From Herbaspirillum hiltneri N3 (GTDB lineage Bacteria > Pseudomonadota > Gammaproteobacteria > Burkholderiales > Burkholderiaceae_D): 64,000 nt of DNA. Below are positions 23,357 to 30,144 of this stretch, piece after piece; positions within the stretch are counted from its first letter, which is position 1, and every line of letters begins with the position of its first letter. The notes under the pieces are model-generated. The model had not been told where the DNA came from. It was given only the letters and a program-made list of their open reading frames with translations, and did not search any database. The position numbers were made by a program, and so were the translations under genes. The stretch covers positions 3,224,001 through 3,288,000 of the forward strand of contig NZ_CP011409.1 in NCBI RefSeq assembly GCF_001267925.1. Reading direction: 5' to 3'.

Positions 23357-24757
23357 TCACTTCGCCTGCACCAGCACCGCCTTCGACACATCTGCCGCCG
23401 CATTGCCTTCCATCACGACAATGCGCGCTGCAGCCTCAACCGATGAAACGCCGGGCGCCGCCAGCTCTCGCAACGGTCCGATGGCCGTGCCATTCGACAT
23501 GCCCTTGGCATCGGTGACGAAACGCGCAACCGGCGCTGCCTGGCCATCGAGATAGACGCTGTAAGCGGTCTGCGGCTTGAGCTTGAACAACGACACTTCC
23601 AGCGCGTCGACCACGCCGAGATTGCGCGACACCACAAAGCCGCGCGCCTCGGCGGGACCGCTGGCCGCCGCTTGCAGGCGGATGTTGAGCGGATCGCTGT
23701 TCACGCGCGCAACCAGATTGGCGGCGCCGCCGTCCGCACCGGCGACATGCGACAGATACACCAGCGCCTGCGGCGCCTGACCGCCGCCGATATGCGCAAT
23801 CACCTTGTTGGAAGCCGTGTCGATGACCTCGACGCCATCCCCGTTCTCGAGTCCGACATAGATGCGGCTGCTGTCATCCGCAGTCCATATCCCATGCGGC
23901 AAGGCGCCGGTGGCGATGGTCGCAATGAGCTTCGCGTCCTTGTCGGTGGTGTAGACCTTGACGACGTTTTCACCGCCGACGGTGACATACGCCAGCACCT
24001 TGCCGCCGACCCTGGCAAACGACAGATGGTTGGTGATGAAGCCGGTGTCGATCACGCCGACGACTTGCTGCGTGCGGGTATCGATGCGCGTGACCTTGCC
24101 GACGTCCTTGTGCGTCATCCAGACTTCCTTGTAGTCCGGGGTGAATTGCAGGAACGGTGAAAACGGACTGACGACGTCGATTTTCTTCACCACCTTGTGC
24201 GACTGTACGTCGATCACGTCGACTTGCGGCGTGAAGCTCGACACCGCAAACGCCAGCTTGTTGTCCGGCATGAACTGCACCATGCCGGGACCGACGCCGG
24301 TCTGGATGCGACCGGTCTCCTTGAAGCTGACCGGATCGATTACCGAGATGTAATCCTCGCCGCGCACCACCACCCAGACTTCCTTGCCGTCGGCGCTGAA
24401 GAAACCTTCATGCGGCGAGCGACCGACGTAAGTCGTACCCTTGACCTTGTTGGTTGCCGTGTCGATGAAGGTCACCGAGTTGGAACCGTTGGAGACCACC
24501 AGCAGCGTCTTGTGGTCGGGTGAAAATCCCATGCCGTGCACGTTGATCTGCCCCTTGTACAGCGGCGACAGCACGTCCGGACGCGGATTGCCGAGGCGGA
24601 TCTGACCGACCAGCGTGTTGGTGGCGGGATTGATGACGCTGACGGTATTGTTGTTCTGGTCGGCGGTGTAGACGCGATCGTCGGCCGACGGCAAAGCCGA
24701 GGCGGCGTGTGCGAACAAGGCTGCGACAGCGCCGAGCGCCAATGCGGATTTTTTCAT
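23357..24757 (-). CDS. Exported YncE-like beta-propeller protein
   Basis: 466 residues. A Sec signal peptide (MKKSALALGAVAALFAHAASA) leads into repeated propeller blades of the type VYTADQNNNTVSVINPATNTLVGQIRLG, LLVVSNGSNSVTFIDTATNKVKGTTYVG and VWVVVRGEDYISVIDPVSFKETGRIQTG. A beta-rich C-terminal domain (about 350-466) ends in VLVQAK. The role is unknown; such proteins often lie beside copper or redox genes. It follows the DUF305 gene by 39 bases on the same strand and is probably transcribed with it from the promoter carrying the 25394-25407 box. Confidence 0.88.
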   Translation of the reverse strand: MKKSALALGAVAALFAHAASALPSADDRVYTADQNNNTVSVINPATNTLVGQIRLGNPRPDVLSPLYKGQINVHGMGFSPDHKTLLVVSNGSNSVTFIDTATNKVKGTTYVGRSPHEGFFSADGKEVWVVVRGEDYISVIDPVSFKETGRIQTGVGPGMVQFMPDNKLAFAVSSFTPQVDVIDVQSHKVVKKIDVVSPFSPFLQFTPDYKEVWMTHKDVGKVTRIDTRTQQVVGVIDTGFITNHLSFARVGGKVLAYVTVGGENVVKVYTTDKDAKLIATIATGALPHGIWTADDSSRIYVGLENGDGVEVIDTASNKVIAHIGGGQAPQALVYLSHVAGADGGAANLVARVNSDPLNIRLQAAASGPAEARGFVVSRNLGVVDALEVSLFKLKPQTAYSVYLDGQAAPVARFVTDAKGMSNGTAIGPLRELAAPGVSSVEAAARIVVMEGNAAADVSKAVLVQAK

Positions 24758-24796
24758 GTTGGTGGTGTCCCTGAGTTGGATTGTGATTGGTTAAAA

Positions 24797-25282
24797 CTAT
24801 TGGCCGCCGGCGCCGCCATGACGCTGCAACCAGGCTTGCATGACCTTGATTTCATTCTGCTGTTCGGTGATGATGCCCAGCGCCAGATTGCGGATTTCCG
24901 GATCATCGGAGTACAGCAGCACGGCCTTCGCCATGTCGATCGCGCCCTGGTGATGCGGCATCATCATCGTGATGAAATCGTGTGCCGGTTTGCCGTTCAT
25001 CGGCGCCTGCGCCATGCCGTAGTCCATCACCGCCATGGCGTCGTCCATCAATCCTGCAAACGGCTTTGCGGTGCTGGCGATGAAGGCCGGCGGCGCCATG
25101 CCGTGCGCGGCGGCGGTTTCAGTGGCGTGATGGTGCTGCATATGCTGGCTATTCTGCATATCCTGGGCCAGCACATTACCGCTGCTGCACAGGAAAATCG
25201 TCGCTGCCAGCACCGAGCCGGCGACTGCCATTGCAGCAGCGACGTGGCGCTGCCCGGCCATGAATCTCATTGTTTGTTCCAT
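24797..25282 (-). CDS. DUF305-family exported protein
   Basis: 161 residues. A signal peptide (hydrophobic core AAAMAVAGSVLAATIFLCSSGNVLA) is followed by a Met/His-rich stretch (DMQNSQHMQHHH) and the DUF305 core. The core carries the family signature HDFITMMMPHHQGAIDMAKAVL and EIRNLALGIITEQQNEIKVMQAWLQRH. The Met/His enrichment is consistent with periplasmic copper binding, which is often proposed for this family but is inferred here. The start at 25282 has a good GGGAGG site. A CusR-like box lies 112-125 bases upstream. Confidence 0.9.
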   Translation of the reverse strand: MEQTMRFMAGQRHVAAAMAVAGSVLAATIFLCSSGNVLAQDMQNSQHMQHHHATETAAAHGMAPPAFIASTAKPFAGLMDDAMAVMDYGMAQAPMNGKPAHDFITMMMPHHQGAIDMAKAVLLYSDDPEIRNLALGIITEQQNEIKVMQAWLQRHGGAGGQ

Positions 25283-25393
25283 GCAAACCTCCCTTGTATT
25301 TCTGATCGTGGACGATCCATCGCACCGGTGAACGGTGCACAGGATTGACGCTCAGTGTAGGAGGCGCAAAGGGTTAAACGGATGACAAAGCGG

Positions 25394-25407
25394 TGACAAA
25401 TTTGTCA
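25394..25407 (-). promoter_or_regulatory. CusR/HprR-like box before the DUF305 unit
   Basis: Perfect palindrome TGACAAATTTGTCA, identical to the one at 27955-27968, with an extra direct half-site TGACAAA at 25383-25389. It fits the published CusR-type pattern TGACAANNTTGTCA. It lies downstream of msrA and upstream of the DUF305-propeller genes. Confidence 0.8.
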
Positions 25408-25444
25408 TGCTTCCCTCCGCGTGGAAGGAAGCACGTCGGACAAA

Positions 25445-26158
25445 TTATTTCTTGAAGACGGTGACCGGCGCGGCGCGATAGTCGGAGGGAAACAGCTGTT
25501 TGAAATTCTCGATCTTTGGCAGATCGAAACGCGCGATATAGCCTTGCGTCGGATGCAGCGTCGCAAAATCCTGATGGTAGTCTTCGGCCGCATAAAACGC
25601 CGCCGGCGCCAACGGCGTCAATTGCGTGACGATGCGCGCCGGGTAGACCTTGGCCGCATCAAGCTGGGCGATGTAGTCGGCGGCGATGCGCTTCTGCTCA
25701 TCGCTCTGGTAGAAGATGGCCGAACGATATTGCGTGCCGCTGTCCGGCCCCTGACGATTGAGCTGGGTCGGGTCGTGCACAACCGAGAAATAGATTTGCA
25801 GGATCTTGCCGTAAGAAACCTTGCGCGGATCGAAGGTCACCTTGACCGATTCGGCATGGCCGGTAGAACCGCTGCCGACCATCTCGTAGCGCGCAGTTTC
25901 CTTGTTGCCGCCGGCATAGCCGGACACCGCGCTGGTCACGCCGAGAGTGTGCTGGAACACTGCCTGCACGCCCCAGAAACAACCGCCGGCGAGAACCACT
26001 GTTTCGGTGGCGGCATTGCTGGCGGGCGCGCTTTTCGGCGGTGGAATCCTGAATGCCGATTCCGCAGCAAAAGCGGGCGAGGCAGGCAATGCAGACATCG
26101 TGATTGCCGAAGCGGCAAACAGAAGCGGCAAACCGTATTTGTGCAAAGTGTTTTTCAT
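25445..26158 (-). CDS. msrA: MsrA: exported peptide-methionine (S)-S-oxide reductase
   Basis: 237 residues from ATG 26158 (ATG 26161 adds one Met; the AAGG site fits 26158 better). A signal peptide (about 1-35, ending SPAFA) precedes the MsrA catalytic core. The core contains VVLAGGCFWGVQAVFQHTLGVTSAVSGYAGG with the nucleophilic Cys, and GHAESVKVTFDP. It repairs Met-S-sulfoxide. A signal peptide is unusual for MsrA and places it in the periplasm beside MsrP, which reduces both isomers. It overlaps the msrQ stop. Confidence 0.92.
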   Translation of the reverse strand: MKNTLHKYGLPLLFAASAITMSALPASPAFAAESAFRIPPPKSAPASNAATETVVLAGGCFWGVQAVFQHTLGVTSAVSGYAGGNKETARYEMVGSGSTGHAESVKVTFDPRKVSYGKILQIYFSVVHDPTQLNRQGPDSGTQYRSAIFYQSDEQKRIAADYIAQLDAAKVYPARIVTQLTPLAPAAFYAAEDYHQDFATLHPTQGYIARFDLPKIENFKQLFPSDYRAAPVTVFKK

Positions 26159-26841
26159 CATTTACCTTCTTTCATCAAAGCAGTTCCTGTATTGCCGGCG
26201 CCGCGCCGCGACCACAGTTGCGCCAGTCGCTGGAGGTTTTTTTCCGACAGCACGCGCGTCAGCAACAGCAGCGCCACGATCATCGAAAACAGGATCGGTT
26301 GCGCCAGCAGATTCTTGCCCGCCTTGACCCACCAGAAATGCAGCACGCCCAGCGGCACGATCACATAGGTGAGCCGGTGCAGCCATTGCCAGCGCTTGCC
26401 GCCCAACCTGCGCACCATGGCGTTGGTGCTGGTGACGGCCAGTGGAATCAGCAGTACGAAGGCCAGCACGCCGACCGTGATGAACGGCCGCTTGACGATG
26501 TCGGCCCACATCTCCCGTACGTCGAAGAAATGATCGAGCCAGAAGAAAATCGTGAAATGCAACGCGACATAGAAAAATGCATACAACCCCAGCATGCGAC
26601 GCAGGCGCACCAGCCAGTTCCACTTCGTCAGCTTGCGCAGCGGCGTCACCGCCAGCGTGATGCACAGGAAATACAAGGCCCAGTCGCCGGTATTACGGGT
26701 GATGAATTCGATCGGGTTGGCGCCCAGCCGGTCGAGGAAGCCGAACGCCACCAGCCGCGCCAGCGGCAGCAGCGCCAGCACGAACAGCAGGTTGCGCAGG
26801 TGCTGCACCTGGCGCTGCGTAAGATTTTTCAGGGATGGCAT
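26158..26841 (-). CDS. msrQ: MsrQ: haem membrane subunit of the MsrPQ system
   Basis: 227 residues with six hydrophobic helices of the ferric-reductase-like fold. Histidines in LYAFFYVALHFTIFF, WQWLHRLTYVIVPLGVLHFWW and nearby segments are the expected b-haem ligands. It passes electrons from the quinone pool to MsrP. I chose the start MPSLKNLTQRQ at 26841, 14 bases after the msrP stop; the frame is open upstream inside msrP. Its stop overlaps the msrA start. Confidence 0.93.
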   Translation of the reverse strand: MPSLKNLTQRQVQHLRNLLFVLALLPLARLVAFGFLDRLGANPIEFITRNTGDWALYFLCITLAVTPLRKLTKWNWLVRLRRMLGLYAFFYVALHFTIFFWLDHFFDVREMWADIVKRPFITVGVLAFVLLIPLAVTSTNAMVRRLGGKRWQWLHRLTYVIVPLGVLHFWWVKAGKNLLAQPILFSMIVALLLLTRVLSEKNLQRLAQLWSRRGAGNTGTALMKEGK

Positions 26842-26854
26842 GTCGGCTCCGGCG

Positions 26855-27829
26855 TCAGAAATATTTCTTGAGATCCATGCCGGTGTACAAGCCCGCGACA
26901 TCGTTGTAGCCGTTGAACATCAGCGTCTTGCGCTTGCGTGCGAAGAAGCCGTCTTCGCCGATACGGCGCTCGCTGGCCTGCGACCAGCGCGGATGATCGA
27001 CGTTGGGATTGACGTTGGAATAGAAGCCGTATTCCTGCGCGGCGTACATGTTCCAGGCGGTCTTCGGCTGATCCTTGACGAAGCGGATCCTGACGATGGA
27101 CTTGGCCGATTTGAAACCGTACTTCCACGGCACGATGACGCGCACCGGCGCGCCGTTCTGGTTCGGCAGCACTTCGCCGTACATGCCCATGGTCAGCAAG
27201 GTCAGCGGATGATTGGCCTCGTCCATACGCAGGCCTTCGGTATACGGCCATTGCAGGATGGGATCGGACAAGCCGGGCATCTGCTTCTTGTCAGCCAGCG
27301 TGACGAACTCGATGTATTTAGCGTTGCCGGTGGGCTCGGCCTTCTTGATCAGCGCCGACAGCGAATAGCCGATCCATGGAATCACCATCGACCAGCCTTC
27401 GACGCAGCGCAGGCGGTAGATGCGTTCTTCCAGCGGCGCCAGCTTCATGAGCGCGTCGAGATCGAGCGTGAACGGCTTCTTCACCTCACCTTCGATGCTG
27501 ACGGTCCAGGGAGCGGTCTTGAGCGTGCCGGCGGTGCGTGCAGGATCCGCCTTGTCGGTGCCGAATTCGTAATAATTGTTGTACGTCGTCGCATCCTGGT
27601 AGGCGGTCGGCTTGTCCATCACGGCATAGGCGCTGTTGAGCTTGGCCGGCAACTTGCGCGCCGTGGCCGACTGGGCAAATGCGCTGCCGGCGCCGAGCAG
27701 GCCGCTGCCGGCGATCGCACCCGCCGCCACCTTGCCCATGAAGGCGCGGCGCGAGGCGTAGACCTCTTGCGGCGTGATCTCCGAAGCGAGCGGAATATCG
27801 ATCTGGTCTGGACGGATTTTGATCAGCAT
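26855..27829 (-). CDS. msrP: MsrP: periplasmic molybdopterin methionine-sulfoxide reductase
   Basis: 324 residues. The twin-arginine signal ([29 protein letters not shown]) marks export in the folded state by Tat. The oxidoreductase Mo-pterin domain has the Mo-ligating Cys in [15 protein letters not shown]. It reduces oxidised methionines in periplasmic proteins with electrons from MsrQ. The start MLIKIRPDQ at 27829 follows AGGAAACC; a longer upstream reading would remove the usual short leader. It is the first gene of the msrPQ-msrA operon, divergent from the two-component system, with a box at 27955-27968 between them. Confidence 0.95.
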
Positions 27830-27954
27830 GGCGGTTTCCTGAAATAATGGATGGATGCGGCTTATTGCCCGGAAGCATGAAAACGCATGGCGCGGGCGCT
27901 TCTTTTGCACCATCATCCTATGGCAGGGGCAGTGTCATCAAGATGGCAATTTGA

Positions 27955-27968
27955 TGACAAATTTGTCA
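27955..27968. promoter_or_regulatory. CusR/HprR-like box in the divergent msrP/regulator region
   Basis: Perfect TGACAAATTTGTCA, within GATGACAAATTTGTCATC (an 18-bp perfect palindrome). It is 126 bases from the msrP start and 85 bases before the regulator ATG, so it can serve both promoters. Confidence 0.82.
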
Positions 27969-28052
27969 TCGTGCGCCCGCCCCGAATTGCTAGAATGCAG
28001 CCACATCTGCCCTACAACCAGTCTGACAACCTCTGAACCCCACAAGCCCAGC

Positions 28053-28724
28053 ATGGCCATCCTTGTCATCGAAGACGATCCGAAAACCGGCGACTACCTC
28101 AAGAAGGGATTGCGCGAGTCCGGCTATACGGTCGATCTCGCACGCACCGGCACCGACGGCCTGCATATGGCGATGGAACAGAACTACGACCTGGTGGTGC
28201 TCGACGTCATGCTGCCCGGCACCGACGGCTGGCAGGTGATGAGCGCGCTGCGCGCCAAACGCGACCTGCCGGTGATTTTCCTGACGGCGCGCGACCATGT
28301 CGACGACCGCATCCGCGGGCTGCAACTGGGCGCCGACGACTACCTGGTCAAGCCGTTTTCATTCACCGAGCTGGTGTTGCGCATCCGCACGCTGCTGCGC
28401 CGCGGCGTCACGCGCGACGCCGAGGTGTACCAGGTCGCCGATCTGCAGCTCGATCACGTACGCCACAAGGTCACCCGGCAAGGCGTCAATATCGTGCTGA
28501 CCAACAAGGAATTCCTGCTGCTGCATCTGCTGATCAAACGCCAGGGCGAAGCCTTGTCGCGCTCGGTGATCGCCTCGCAGGTGTGGGACATGAATTTCGA
28601 CAGCGACACCAACGTCGTCGACGTTGCGGTCAAGCGCCTGCGCGCCAAGATAGACGCGCCGTTCGAAAAGAAACTGATCCACACCGTGCGCAGCATCGGC
28701 TACATGTTTTCCGAAACGCCATGA
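28053..28724 (+). CDS. OmpR-family response regulator, CusR/HprR-like
   Basis: 223 residues. The REC domain has Asp51 in [13 protein letters not shown] and conserved Lys in YLVKPFSF. The winged-helix DNA-binding domain includes [53 protein letters not shown], typical of the heavy-metal/HprR (YedW) branch. The start MAILVIEDD at 28053 is the family start. It is expected to bind the TGACAAATTTGTCA boxes and switch on msrPQ-msrA and the DUF305 unit. In E. coli HprSR controls msrPQ in response to hypochlorous acid or peroxide; the stimulus here is inferred only. Confidence 0.93.
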
Positions 28725-28734
28725 AGGACGCAGC

Positions 28735-30144
28735 ATGAGGCCATGGCGCTCCTGGACACTGGCGTTCCGTGTCAGCGCGCTGTTTGCGCTGATCGCCTTC
28801 CTGGTGGTGACGGGGCTGGGCATGTATCTCTACAACTCCGCGCGCCAGTCGCTGGAAGTGCGCGCCGACTACACGCTGATCGGCCGCGTCGAACATTTCC
28901 GCAACCTGCTGCACGACCTCTACAACGTCGAGCAGATGGAGCAGCGTCCCGCCCTGTTCGAAAGCATGCTCGGCAACGAGCAGGATGTGCGCATCTTCCG
29001 CCGCCAGGGCGAGGCGCCGTTCATCAACATGAATCCCGACAAGCTGACGCCGCCGGAGATGACGCCGGTCGCCATCGGCATGCCGCTGGGCATCGCCTCG
29101 CTGCATGACGGCATGCGCGCCGACGGCGTGCGGGTGCGCTGGGTCTCCGCGCTGGCTGACGTCGGCAACCATAACGACACCGTCGAGATTGTCGCCGCCT
29201 ATGTCATGACGCAAGAGTCGCGCATGATGACGGTGTATCTATGGCGCGTGGTGGCCGCCGTGGCGCTGGCGGTGCTGCTGACGTCTGTGCTCGGTTTCGC
29301 CGTGCTGCGGCGCGACCTGAGGCCGCTTACGCGCATGAGCCGCCGCGCCGCCGAAATCACCCCGTCCAATCTCAGTACCCGGCTGCGGGAAGAAGATGCG
29401 CCGGCCGAATTGCGCCAGCTCGCCGGTGCGCTCAACGCCATGCTCGATCGCCTCGAAAACGGCTACGAACATCTGTCGCAATTTTCCGCCGACCTGGCGC
29501 ATGAGATCCGCACGCCGGTCAACATCCTGATGGGGCAGACGCAAGTGACGCTGGGTCAACGCCGCAGCGTAGAAGAGTATGAGCAACTGCTGGAATCGAA
29601 CCTGGAGGAATTGACGCGCCTGTCGCGCATCATCGAGAACATCCTGTTCCTGGCGCAGACCGACCATGCCGAACTGATGGTTGATCGCAGTGCGATTGAA
29701 TTGTCGGAAGAGCTGCAAAAGATCGCCGATTATTTCGAAGGCGTGGCAGCCGAACGCGACATGCAGTTCGAGGTCGATGTCGCACCGGGTCTGGCCTGCA
29801 GCGCCAACCTGGTGATGGGGCGGCGCGCGGTCAGCAACCTCGTGGTCAACGCGGTGCGCTACGGCGACGTCGGCACCGCCATCAGGATCGGCGCGCGACC
29901 GGTTGCCGGTGGTGTCGCCATTGACGTCGCCAACCGCGGCGCGCCGATGACGCGGCAACAAATGGAACGCATGTTCGACCGCTTCTATCGCGGCGACAAG
30001 TCACGCAGTGAATTCACCGAATCCAACGGGCTCGGCCTGGCGATCGTCAAGGCCATCATGACCGTGCATGGCGGCACAGCCGCCGTGGCTTGCTCCGCCG
30101 ACGGCTGGATCGCCTTCAGCCTGTTCTTCCCCACGCGGGGGTGA
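28735..30144 (+). CDS. Sensor histidine kinase, CusS/HprS-like
   Basis: 469 residues. Transmembrane helices lie at about 13-33 and 163-187 and enclose a periplasmic sensor of about 130 residues. HAMP follows, then HisKA with phospho-His in FSADLAHEIRTPVNILMGQ (near residue 256) and HATPase with the N-box NLVVNAVRYG and G-box NGLGLAIVKAIM. It starts 10 bases after the regulator stop. The heavy-metal-sensor-kinase layout matches CusS/HprS; the sensor domain alone does not reveal copper or oxidant specificity. Confidence 0.93.
   Translation: MRPWRSWTLAFRVSALFALIAFLVVTGLGMYLYNSARQSLEVRADYTLIGRVEHFRNLLHDLYNVEQMEQRPALFESMLGNEQDVRIFRRQGEAPFINMNPDKLTPPEMTPVAIGMPLGIASLHDGMRADGVRVRWVSALADVGNHNDTVEIVAAYVMTQESRMMTVYLWRVVAAVALAVLLTSVLGFAVLRRDLRPLTRMSRRAAEITPSNLSTRLREEDAPAELRQLAGALNAMLDRLENGYEHLSQFSADLAHEIRTPVNILMGQTQVTLGQRRSVEEYEQLLESNLEELTRLSRIIENILFLAQTDHAELMVDRSAIELSEELQKIADYFEGVAAERDMQFEVDVAPGLACSANLVMGRRAVSNLVVNAVRYGDVGTAIRIGARPVAGGVAIDVANRGAPMTRQQMERMFDRFYRGDKSRSEFTESNGLGLAIVKAIMTVHGGTAAVACSADGWIAFSLFFPTRG

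Follow-up and report, generated by a model that had tools for sequence, protein, structure and literature searches.

Organisation of the locus

The stretch analysed here, 64,000 nucleotides of contig NZ_CP011409.1 from Herbaspirillum hiltneri N3 (hereafter the window), carries a two-component system, the genes of the periplasmic methionine-sulfoxide reductase MsrPQ with an msrA gene, and a neighbouring pair encoding a DUF305 protein and a beta-propeller. Two copies of a 14-bp palindrome precede these genes, and the sequence comparisons below give good support to their reading as the boxes of a single predicted regulon.

On the forward strand, a response regulator (RR) of the cztR/silR/copR, or heavy-metal type, subfamily (28053..28724; TIGR01387, 339.8 bits against a cut-off of 279.2) is followed by a sensor histidine kinase with an HprS-like periplasmic region (28735..30144; TIGR01386, 434.6 bits against 292.55). 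All other genes lie on the reverse strand. The catalytic subunit MsrP (26855..27829; NF003767, 486.1 bits against 207) has a twin-arginine-type leader as read from its sequence and counts 324 residues when started at 27829, the listed open reading frame beginning further upstream. After 13 bp comes msrQ, for the heme-binding membrane subunit (26158..26841; NF003831, 181.6 bits against 130), whose stop codon overlaps the start of msrA (ATGA). MsrA (25445..26161; TIGR00401, 166.2 bits against 108.1) bears a leader peptide and possesses a single cysteine in the entire protein, Cys61 in a GCFWG motif. A gap of 162 bp, which holds a hairpin and the second box, separates msrA from the gene for a DUF305 protein with a leader (24797..25282; PF03713, 66.1 bits against 27), and 39 bp further on stands the gene for a 466-residue YncE/YVTN-type beta-propeller, also with a leader (23357..24757; PF21783, 65.2 bits against 27.1). 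The DUF305 protein is rich in Met and His (17 and 10 in 161 residues) and scores under the cut-off of the CopM model NF049983 (81.4 of 90 bits), as the propeller does for the YncE equivalog model (62 bits, cut-off 400). Profile scores over the Pfam and NCBIfam cut-offs uphold the identities that a first-pass annotation, made from the sequence alone, had given to these genes. Among the eight proteins scanned between 20572 and 30144 there is neither an extracytoplasmic function (ECF) sigma or anti-sigma factor nor a Met-rich peptide; the two-component pair stands there instead.

The box and its promoters

The palindrome TGACAAATTTGTCA, located by pattern search and promoter reading and assigned to no strand, lies between the regulator gene and msrP (27955..27968) and before DUF305 (25394..25407). 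The first-pass annotation had noticed it nowhere else in the window, which is confirmed within one mismatch: these two sites are the only exact matches of TGACAANNTTGTCA, the next best having two mismatches, and neither TGACAWWWWTGTCA nor TGACAANNTTGTCA occurred in 300 dinucleotide shuffles of the window.

In the direction of msrP and of DUF305, the palindrome is followed at exactly 34 bp by a TANNNT hexamer (-10 elements TAGGAT at 27915..27920 and TACACT at 25354..25359, both on the reverse strand). A putative third half-site begins 5 bp past the palindrome on the same strand, TTGCCA on the msrP side (27944..27949, an 11-bp repeat) and TTGTCA on the DUF305 side (25383..25388). Towards the regulator the spacing is another one: an extended-type -10, TAGAAT (27991..27996, forward strand), lies 22 bp from the palindrome, and 22-23 bp is the distance to such an element in most genomes of the genus. 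This asymmetric promoter code could serve to find further members.

Two Escherichia coli promoters provide a reference, their hexamers read by eye (L277/L278). That of cusC combines TGACAATTTTGTCA with TAAAGT at 34 bp, and that of hiuH combines TTACAAAATTGTAA with TATCCT at the same distance. The window promoters match both the cusC box and its 34-bp geometry, and the palindrome is of the CusR type, as the first-pass annotation had stated. The window box, TGACA-W4-TGTCA, does not conform to the TTACA type of TTACAAAATTGTAA at hiuH.

The box also occurs outside the window. Over the whole genome (4,965,474 bases, 4.97 Mb), TGACAWWWWTGTCA has three matches and the reversed control pattern none. 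Besides the two window boxes there is a third chromosomal site (G000:C1:4862393), a perfect box 87 bp upstream of an operon for a DUF5666 protein, a cytochrome b561 and an MsrP-like molybdoenzyme (G000:C1:4862393-4864530, L341); the next long frame downstream runs in the opposite direction. Among solved structures, this molybdopterin protein has its best relative in 1xdq ('Bacterial Sulfite Oxidase'), which is E. coli YedY/MsrP.

Other candidate sites were set aside. The three genomic matches of TGACAANNTTGTCA are the two window boxes and one before an MFS transporter (G000:C1:2201193, L001), which fits TGACAANNTTGTCA perfectly, misfits the W4 core, has no TANNNT 34 bp downstream and was judged unrelated. 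A survey with up to one mismatch added four sites (L004-L007) with no TANNNT 34 bp downstream, judged by eye to be chance, no gene search having been made around them. The genome also holds a second msrPQ copy (G000:C1:4752290-4753264, L039), its MsrP 77% identical to that of the window, with no box and no adjoining regulator; among the nine genus genomes covered by the msrPQ search, only G000 and G137 have two copies.

Conservation across Herbaspirillum

Thirty-four Herbaspirillum genomes were compared; they are related, and the counts drawn from them are not independent. The first-pass annotation had proposed searching related genomes for the gene order and the box. Twenty-eight genomes have an RR orthologue (87% identity or more), in every case with the box upstream, perfect in 27 and with one mismatch in G168; the 71% identical regulator of G145 and the broken regulator-kinase copy of G149 are outside this count. 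Where msrP shares the locus of the regulator it is always boxed (28 of 28, G149 included), with TANNNT at 34 bp in 27 cases and at 33 bp in one; the msrP copies of G145, G147, G157, G160 and G169, which do not adjoin a regulator, are not part of this number. Over 26 intergenic regions, the columns of the box are 97% conserved versus 60% for the remaining ones.

The same arrangement accompanies the other modules. DUF305 orthologues (at least 60% identity), gathered by protein search with the box not considered, are boxed in 10 of 10 cases, six perfectly and four with one mismatch, and nine have TANNNT at 34 bp; a fragment (G155:C74), a copy with an internal stop and a one-mismatch box (G159) and a 34% identical protein (G168) were left out. 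The boxed DUF305 of G074 is on a different contig from msrP. DUF5666 orthologues (at least 68% identity, also from a protein search) all have a perfect box (21 of 21), and in 20 of them a TANNNT hexamer follows, 34 bp away in 15 and 33 bp away in five. The nine DUF5666 paralogues under 50% identity have no box, the best sites in the 600 bp upstream showing three mismatches. With phylogeny ignored among these related genomes, DUF5666 is present in 21 of the 28 genomes that have the regulator versus none of the six that do not (p 0.0013), and DUF305 in 10 of 28 versus none of six (p 0.15).

Exported MsrB proteins are boxed in G150 and G164 and belong, by this reading of their promoters, to the same box set. 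In a further 27 MsrB loci, roughly 50-60% identical, nothing better than three mismatches lies within 600 bp upstream (seven of the 37 matches were left out of the reading). In G167 (L269), regulator and msrA are direct neighbours on either side of the box.

In G166 (L265 5001-14598) about 9.6 kb separate the regulator from msrP, with a copy of the box at each edge, and by eye this stretch contains genes resembling those for a LacI-type regulator, a TonB-dependent receptor, a monooxygenase and TonB/ExbBD. In G149 (L231), the regulator-kinase copy seems to be split into overlapping pieces, and the box and the start of msrP are still present.

Identity of the regulator and its sensor

The window regulator is neither a CusR nor an HprR by the respective models, scoring 299.3 bits under a cut-off of 420 and 296.9 bits under one of 353; its identity is 58% to CusR and 53% to HprR. 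A tree of 60 sequences places it in a clade of 13 members (support 100/98) that includes the orthologues from outside the genus and excludes both CusR and HprR, the latter being a long branch of unsure exact position. Three regulators of the genome exceed the TIGR01387 family cut-off, two besides that of the window. One is a CusR-like paralogue (G000:C1:1106073, L357): it adjoins a multicopper oxidase (Pfam), TTACATTCCTGTAA lies upstream of it, and in the tree it is joined by E. coli CusR in a seven-row fork whose support is modest (90/77). The other, without a box of this kind, comes after a gene that by eye resembles an RND pump.

BLASTP aligns the sensor kinase with HprS from residue 27 to 450; with CusS, the alignment covers the kinase half (residues 172-457) and one chance-level stretch, and the Met/His loop of CusS is absent from the sensor region. 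Residues 31-172 contain nine methionines and no cysteine. Met78, the equivalent of HprS Met72, and Met158 are methionine in 33 of 33 sequences, the window included, and Met164, the equivalent of HprS Met153, in 29 of 33. El Hajj et al. in 2022 reportedly dealt with the roles of the periplasmic Met72 and Met153 and of the membrane Cys165 of HprS. According to a review, methionine oxidation of HprS induces msrPQ (PMC13367049).

Regulator, box and modules in other genera and on plasmids

Fifty msrPQ loci were read from the other genera of this family, out of 113 genomes with a match, and no box up to one mismatch lies upstream of msrP in them (one locus, L092, comes without upstream sequence). 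At the level of the order, six of 300 genomes have a very close regulator, and four of the six do not belong to the genus. In G356, the regulator faces DUF305-yncE with a perfect box between, and no msr gene lies in the 20-kb stretch. In G025 and in Chimaeribacter arupi, the latter from a scan of GTDB, it faces a DUF5666-cytochrome b-MsrP-like operon, again across a perfect box; the msrPQ locus of G025 (L098) has none. The G282 regulator faces cytochrome b-MsrP-like-DUF5666, and that of G409 adjoins a propeller and a small Tat-type protein. Regulator and box thus pair separately with different modules, which is hard to explain unless these form one regulon. Of the 80 loci of the GTDB scan, Chimaeribacter arupi was the informative one; the other 79, some of them short, contain no window-type msr, DUF305 or YncE gene at E 1e-6. 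Near regulators from outside the genus, we also observed a smaller YVTN propeller together with a small Tat-type protein (L348 6258-7650, L351 10295-11677), a HiPIP in L348.

On plasmids, DUF305 adjoins a YncE-like gene in all ten records inspected out of 104 with a match (L352-L355, L368-L373; flanks of 9 kb in four and 4 kb in six). Six of these stretches include an ECF-type sigma or anti-sigma factor, and six a gene annotated as sulfite oxidase or molybdopterin oxidoreductase. TDT or YeiH exporters and CrcB are also found nearby.

MsrA and its boundary with DUF305

The first-pass annotation had considered the signal peptide of MsrA unusual. The leader itself is there in the sequence; its rarity did not survive comparison, and export was ruled out as a special feature of this MsrA. 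Among the best 120 homologues of 7996 with E up to 1e-40, 116 begin with what a simple hydrophobicity criterion classes as a leader, and 119 lack a cysteine after the catalytic one. The best solved matches are the MsrA/MsrB entries 3bqe-3bqh, which we take to be the MsrA domain of PilB.

Directly 3' of msrA, a hairpin overlapping the second box (25399..25446, reverse strand; -26.3 kcal/mol, z -6.1) was equalled by none of 200 shuffles. It has no T-run and was not called by terminator prediction; it could possibly mark a transcript boundary.

A predicted oxidant-responsive regulon and its alternatives

The first-pass proposal that one regulon of the CusR/HprR family links MsrPQ and exported MsrA with DUF305 and the propeller is well supported: the box and its distance to the -10 are conserved across the genus, and in other lineages regulator and box are paired anew with single modules. 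We infer from these sequences how the regulator binds and activates, what signal it answers and which roles DUF305, YncE and DUF5666 may have. The two-component system, which forms a clade apart and stands between HprSR and CusSR, would sense periplasmic oxidant, the signal being most likely reactive chlorine species perceived through the Met-bearing sensor. Once phosphorylated, the regulator would bind, some 53 bp ahead of the transcription start, to TGACA-W4-TGTCA and to the third half-site located one turn further downstream. It would activate msrPQ-msrA, for periplasmic methionine sulfoxide repair by respiratory electrons and thiol chemistry; DUF305-yncE, a Met-rich exported protein and a propeller whose probable role would be that of a methionine sink, of a metal buffer or of partners in repair; and the distant DUF5666-cytochrome b561-MsrP-like operon. 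Its own gene would be controlled through the differently spaced promoter. That the three boxed operons, driven by this own-clade system, constitute an oxidant-responsive defence against periplasmic methionine sulfoxide is what we consider likely.

Several observations weigh against this interpretation. The sensor lacks an equivalent of the transmembrane Cys165 of HprS, and four relatives have I, V or L in place of Met164. The DUF305 promoter of G150 carries CAAACT where TANNNT is expected, the leader-bearing MsrB of G167 is without a box, the box of G282 has one mismatch, and in G409 no box stands directly upstream, one being found further off. The association statistics rest on related genomes, and of the six that lack the regulator, one is an incomplete assembly (G160, 63%) and another contains a broken copy (G149). 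Finally, the same type of box, again 34 bp from TANNNT, stands before an outer-membrane efflux gene in six of six loci read (L223, L225, L228, L248, L270, L272; Pfam OEP in all four tested, L223, L228, L248 and L272). These four lie in genomes (G145, G147, G157, G169) that lack an RR orthologue at the 87% level, the G145 regulator reaching 71%. Another regulator probably uses the same box at these efflux genes. Since efflux boxes occur in genomes without the orthologue, the box and its geometry alone do not identify the regulator, and the shared 34-bp spacing makes us slightly less confident in the oxidant regulon and slightly more so in a paralogous regulator.

Among the alternatives, a response to both signals survives best, although we regard it as doubtful. 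Copper and reactive chlorine would then converge through cross-talk with a CopRS-like system, in the manner of the sites shared by HprR and CusR in E. coli, which recognise the same sequence with different affinity (PMC8249747). The presence of three regulators above the subfamily cut-off in this genome agrees with such cross-talk; the CopR-like regulator, however, has a TTACA-type palindrome upstream and not a TGACA one.

A pure copper defence appears unlikely. The system would be the equivalent of CusSR and sense Cu(I), the Msr enzymes would guard Met-rich copper proteins, and the DUF305 protein would be a CopM-like chaperone. The CusR-type TGACA box with cusC-like spacing, the regulator's higher identity to CusR than to HprR and the near approach of DUF305 to the CopM model all agree with it, as does the induction of E. 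coli msrPQ by copper through CusSR (PMC9302797). However, none of the three boxed operons contains a copper pump or oxidase; a multicopper oxidase of this genome has as its neighbour the CusR-like paralogue, which is preceded by TTACATTCCTGTAA and falls with CusR in the modestly supported fork; and no alignment with CusS was obtained over the sensor half, where the CusS Met/His loop is missing. We likewise ruled out, as the principal explanation, a CusR site common to copper efflux, no copper-export gene being found at the three operons with an exact TGACAWWWWTGTCA, in a genome surveyed for sites of up to one mismatch. The first-pass annotation had left the choice between a copper and a hypochlorite module: with an HprS-like sensor, no boxed pump or oxidase and another palindrome beside the multicopper oxidase, its copper half is weakened, and copper would fit this module less well than an oxidant.

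That a paralogous regulator, for instance that of the efflux operon, reads the boxes while the adjacent one is a bystander for DUF305 and DUF5666 is very improbable: it would account for the boxes at 34 bp before efflux genes in the four genomes mentioned, but not readily for a box with 28 of 28 orthologues, for regulator, box and single modules occurring together in other genera, or for DUF5666 being found in none of the six genomes without an orthologue of at least 87%.

Going further with the oxidant-responsive regulon, we tentatively suggest a third, hitherto unrecognised CusR/HprR type, specialised in the oxidation of envelope methionine, whose modular kit would be reshuffled between species with regulator, box and 34-bp geometry kept fixed. 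The kit would comprise MsrPQ, exported MsrA, exported MsrB, DUF305-YncE and DUF5666-cytochrome b561-MsrP-like. If so, DUF305-YncE would be a reusable methionine sink, a counterpart of MrpX often found beside ECF sigma factors on plasmids, and the DUF5666-cytochrome b561-MsrP-like operon would provide a second reductase of sulfoxides or related substrates.

Comparison with known systems

Periplasmic methionine repair has so far been mainly a matter of MsrPQ under HprSR/CusSR in E. coli and under ECF sigma factors elsewhere. E. coli MsrPQ repairs periplasmic proteins and is induced by reactive chlorine via HprSR and by copper via CusSR (PMC9302797, PMC12503329). Hypochlorite defence in Azospira and Brucella combines an exported Met-rich peptide with a pair of the MsrPQ type (PMC5748585, PMC8315932). 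Within a literature consulted mainly as titles and starts of abstracts, with most subscription papers outside, we found neither a description of the present regulon nor a paper with both DUF305 and YncE. Exported MsrA and MsrB, DUF305, the YncE-like propeller and the DUF5666-cytochrome b-molybdoenzyme operon would come under one predicted switch that can be read from the sequence, and these families of obscure role would gain a testable shared function tied to oxidant defence.

The locus resembles HprSR/hiuH-msrPQ of E. coli in its two-component genes divergent from an msrPQ operon, in a palindrome 34 bp from the -10, in a sensor that HprS matches over its whole length and in the invariant equivalent of Met72. 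It differs in its box, TGACA-W4-TGTCA where E. coli has TTACA-N4-TGTAA, in a regulator that stays below the HprR cut-off and belongs to another clade, and in boxed operons that lack hiuH and add MsrA, DUF305-yncE and DUF5666-cytochrome b-MsrP-like.

With CusSR-cusCFBA it shares the sequence of the cusC box, the exact 34-bp geometry and 58% regulator identity. Unlike in that system, the three boxed operons are without efflux genes, the sensor region differs from that of CusS, and the genome has a separate CusR-like regulator adjoining a multicopper oxidase.

The association of MsrPQ-type repair with an exported Met-rich protein recalls SigF/NrsF-MrpX-YedY1 of Azospira and BcrS/AbcS-BcrXQP of Brucella. 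Those systems rely on an ECF sigma factor and an MXKDX peptide, whereas here a two-component system goes with DUF305, a propeller and MsrA. Export of MsrA is shared with the PilB-type MsrAB of Neisseria and Haemophilus; unlike in the latter, the present MsrA is a separate one-cysteine protein within the msrPQ operon, with no fused MsrB. The DUF305 protein has the family, the Met/His richness and the leader of the CopM/DUF305 copper proteins and could be a methionine sink or a copper binder; unlike CopM, it stays below that cut-off and is genetically tied to a YncE-like propeller. Taken together, the predicted regulon varies the HprSR/CusSR-MsrPQ theme by its additional modules and by a regulator that belongs to a clade apart.

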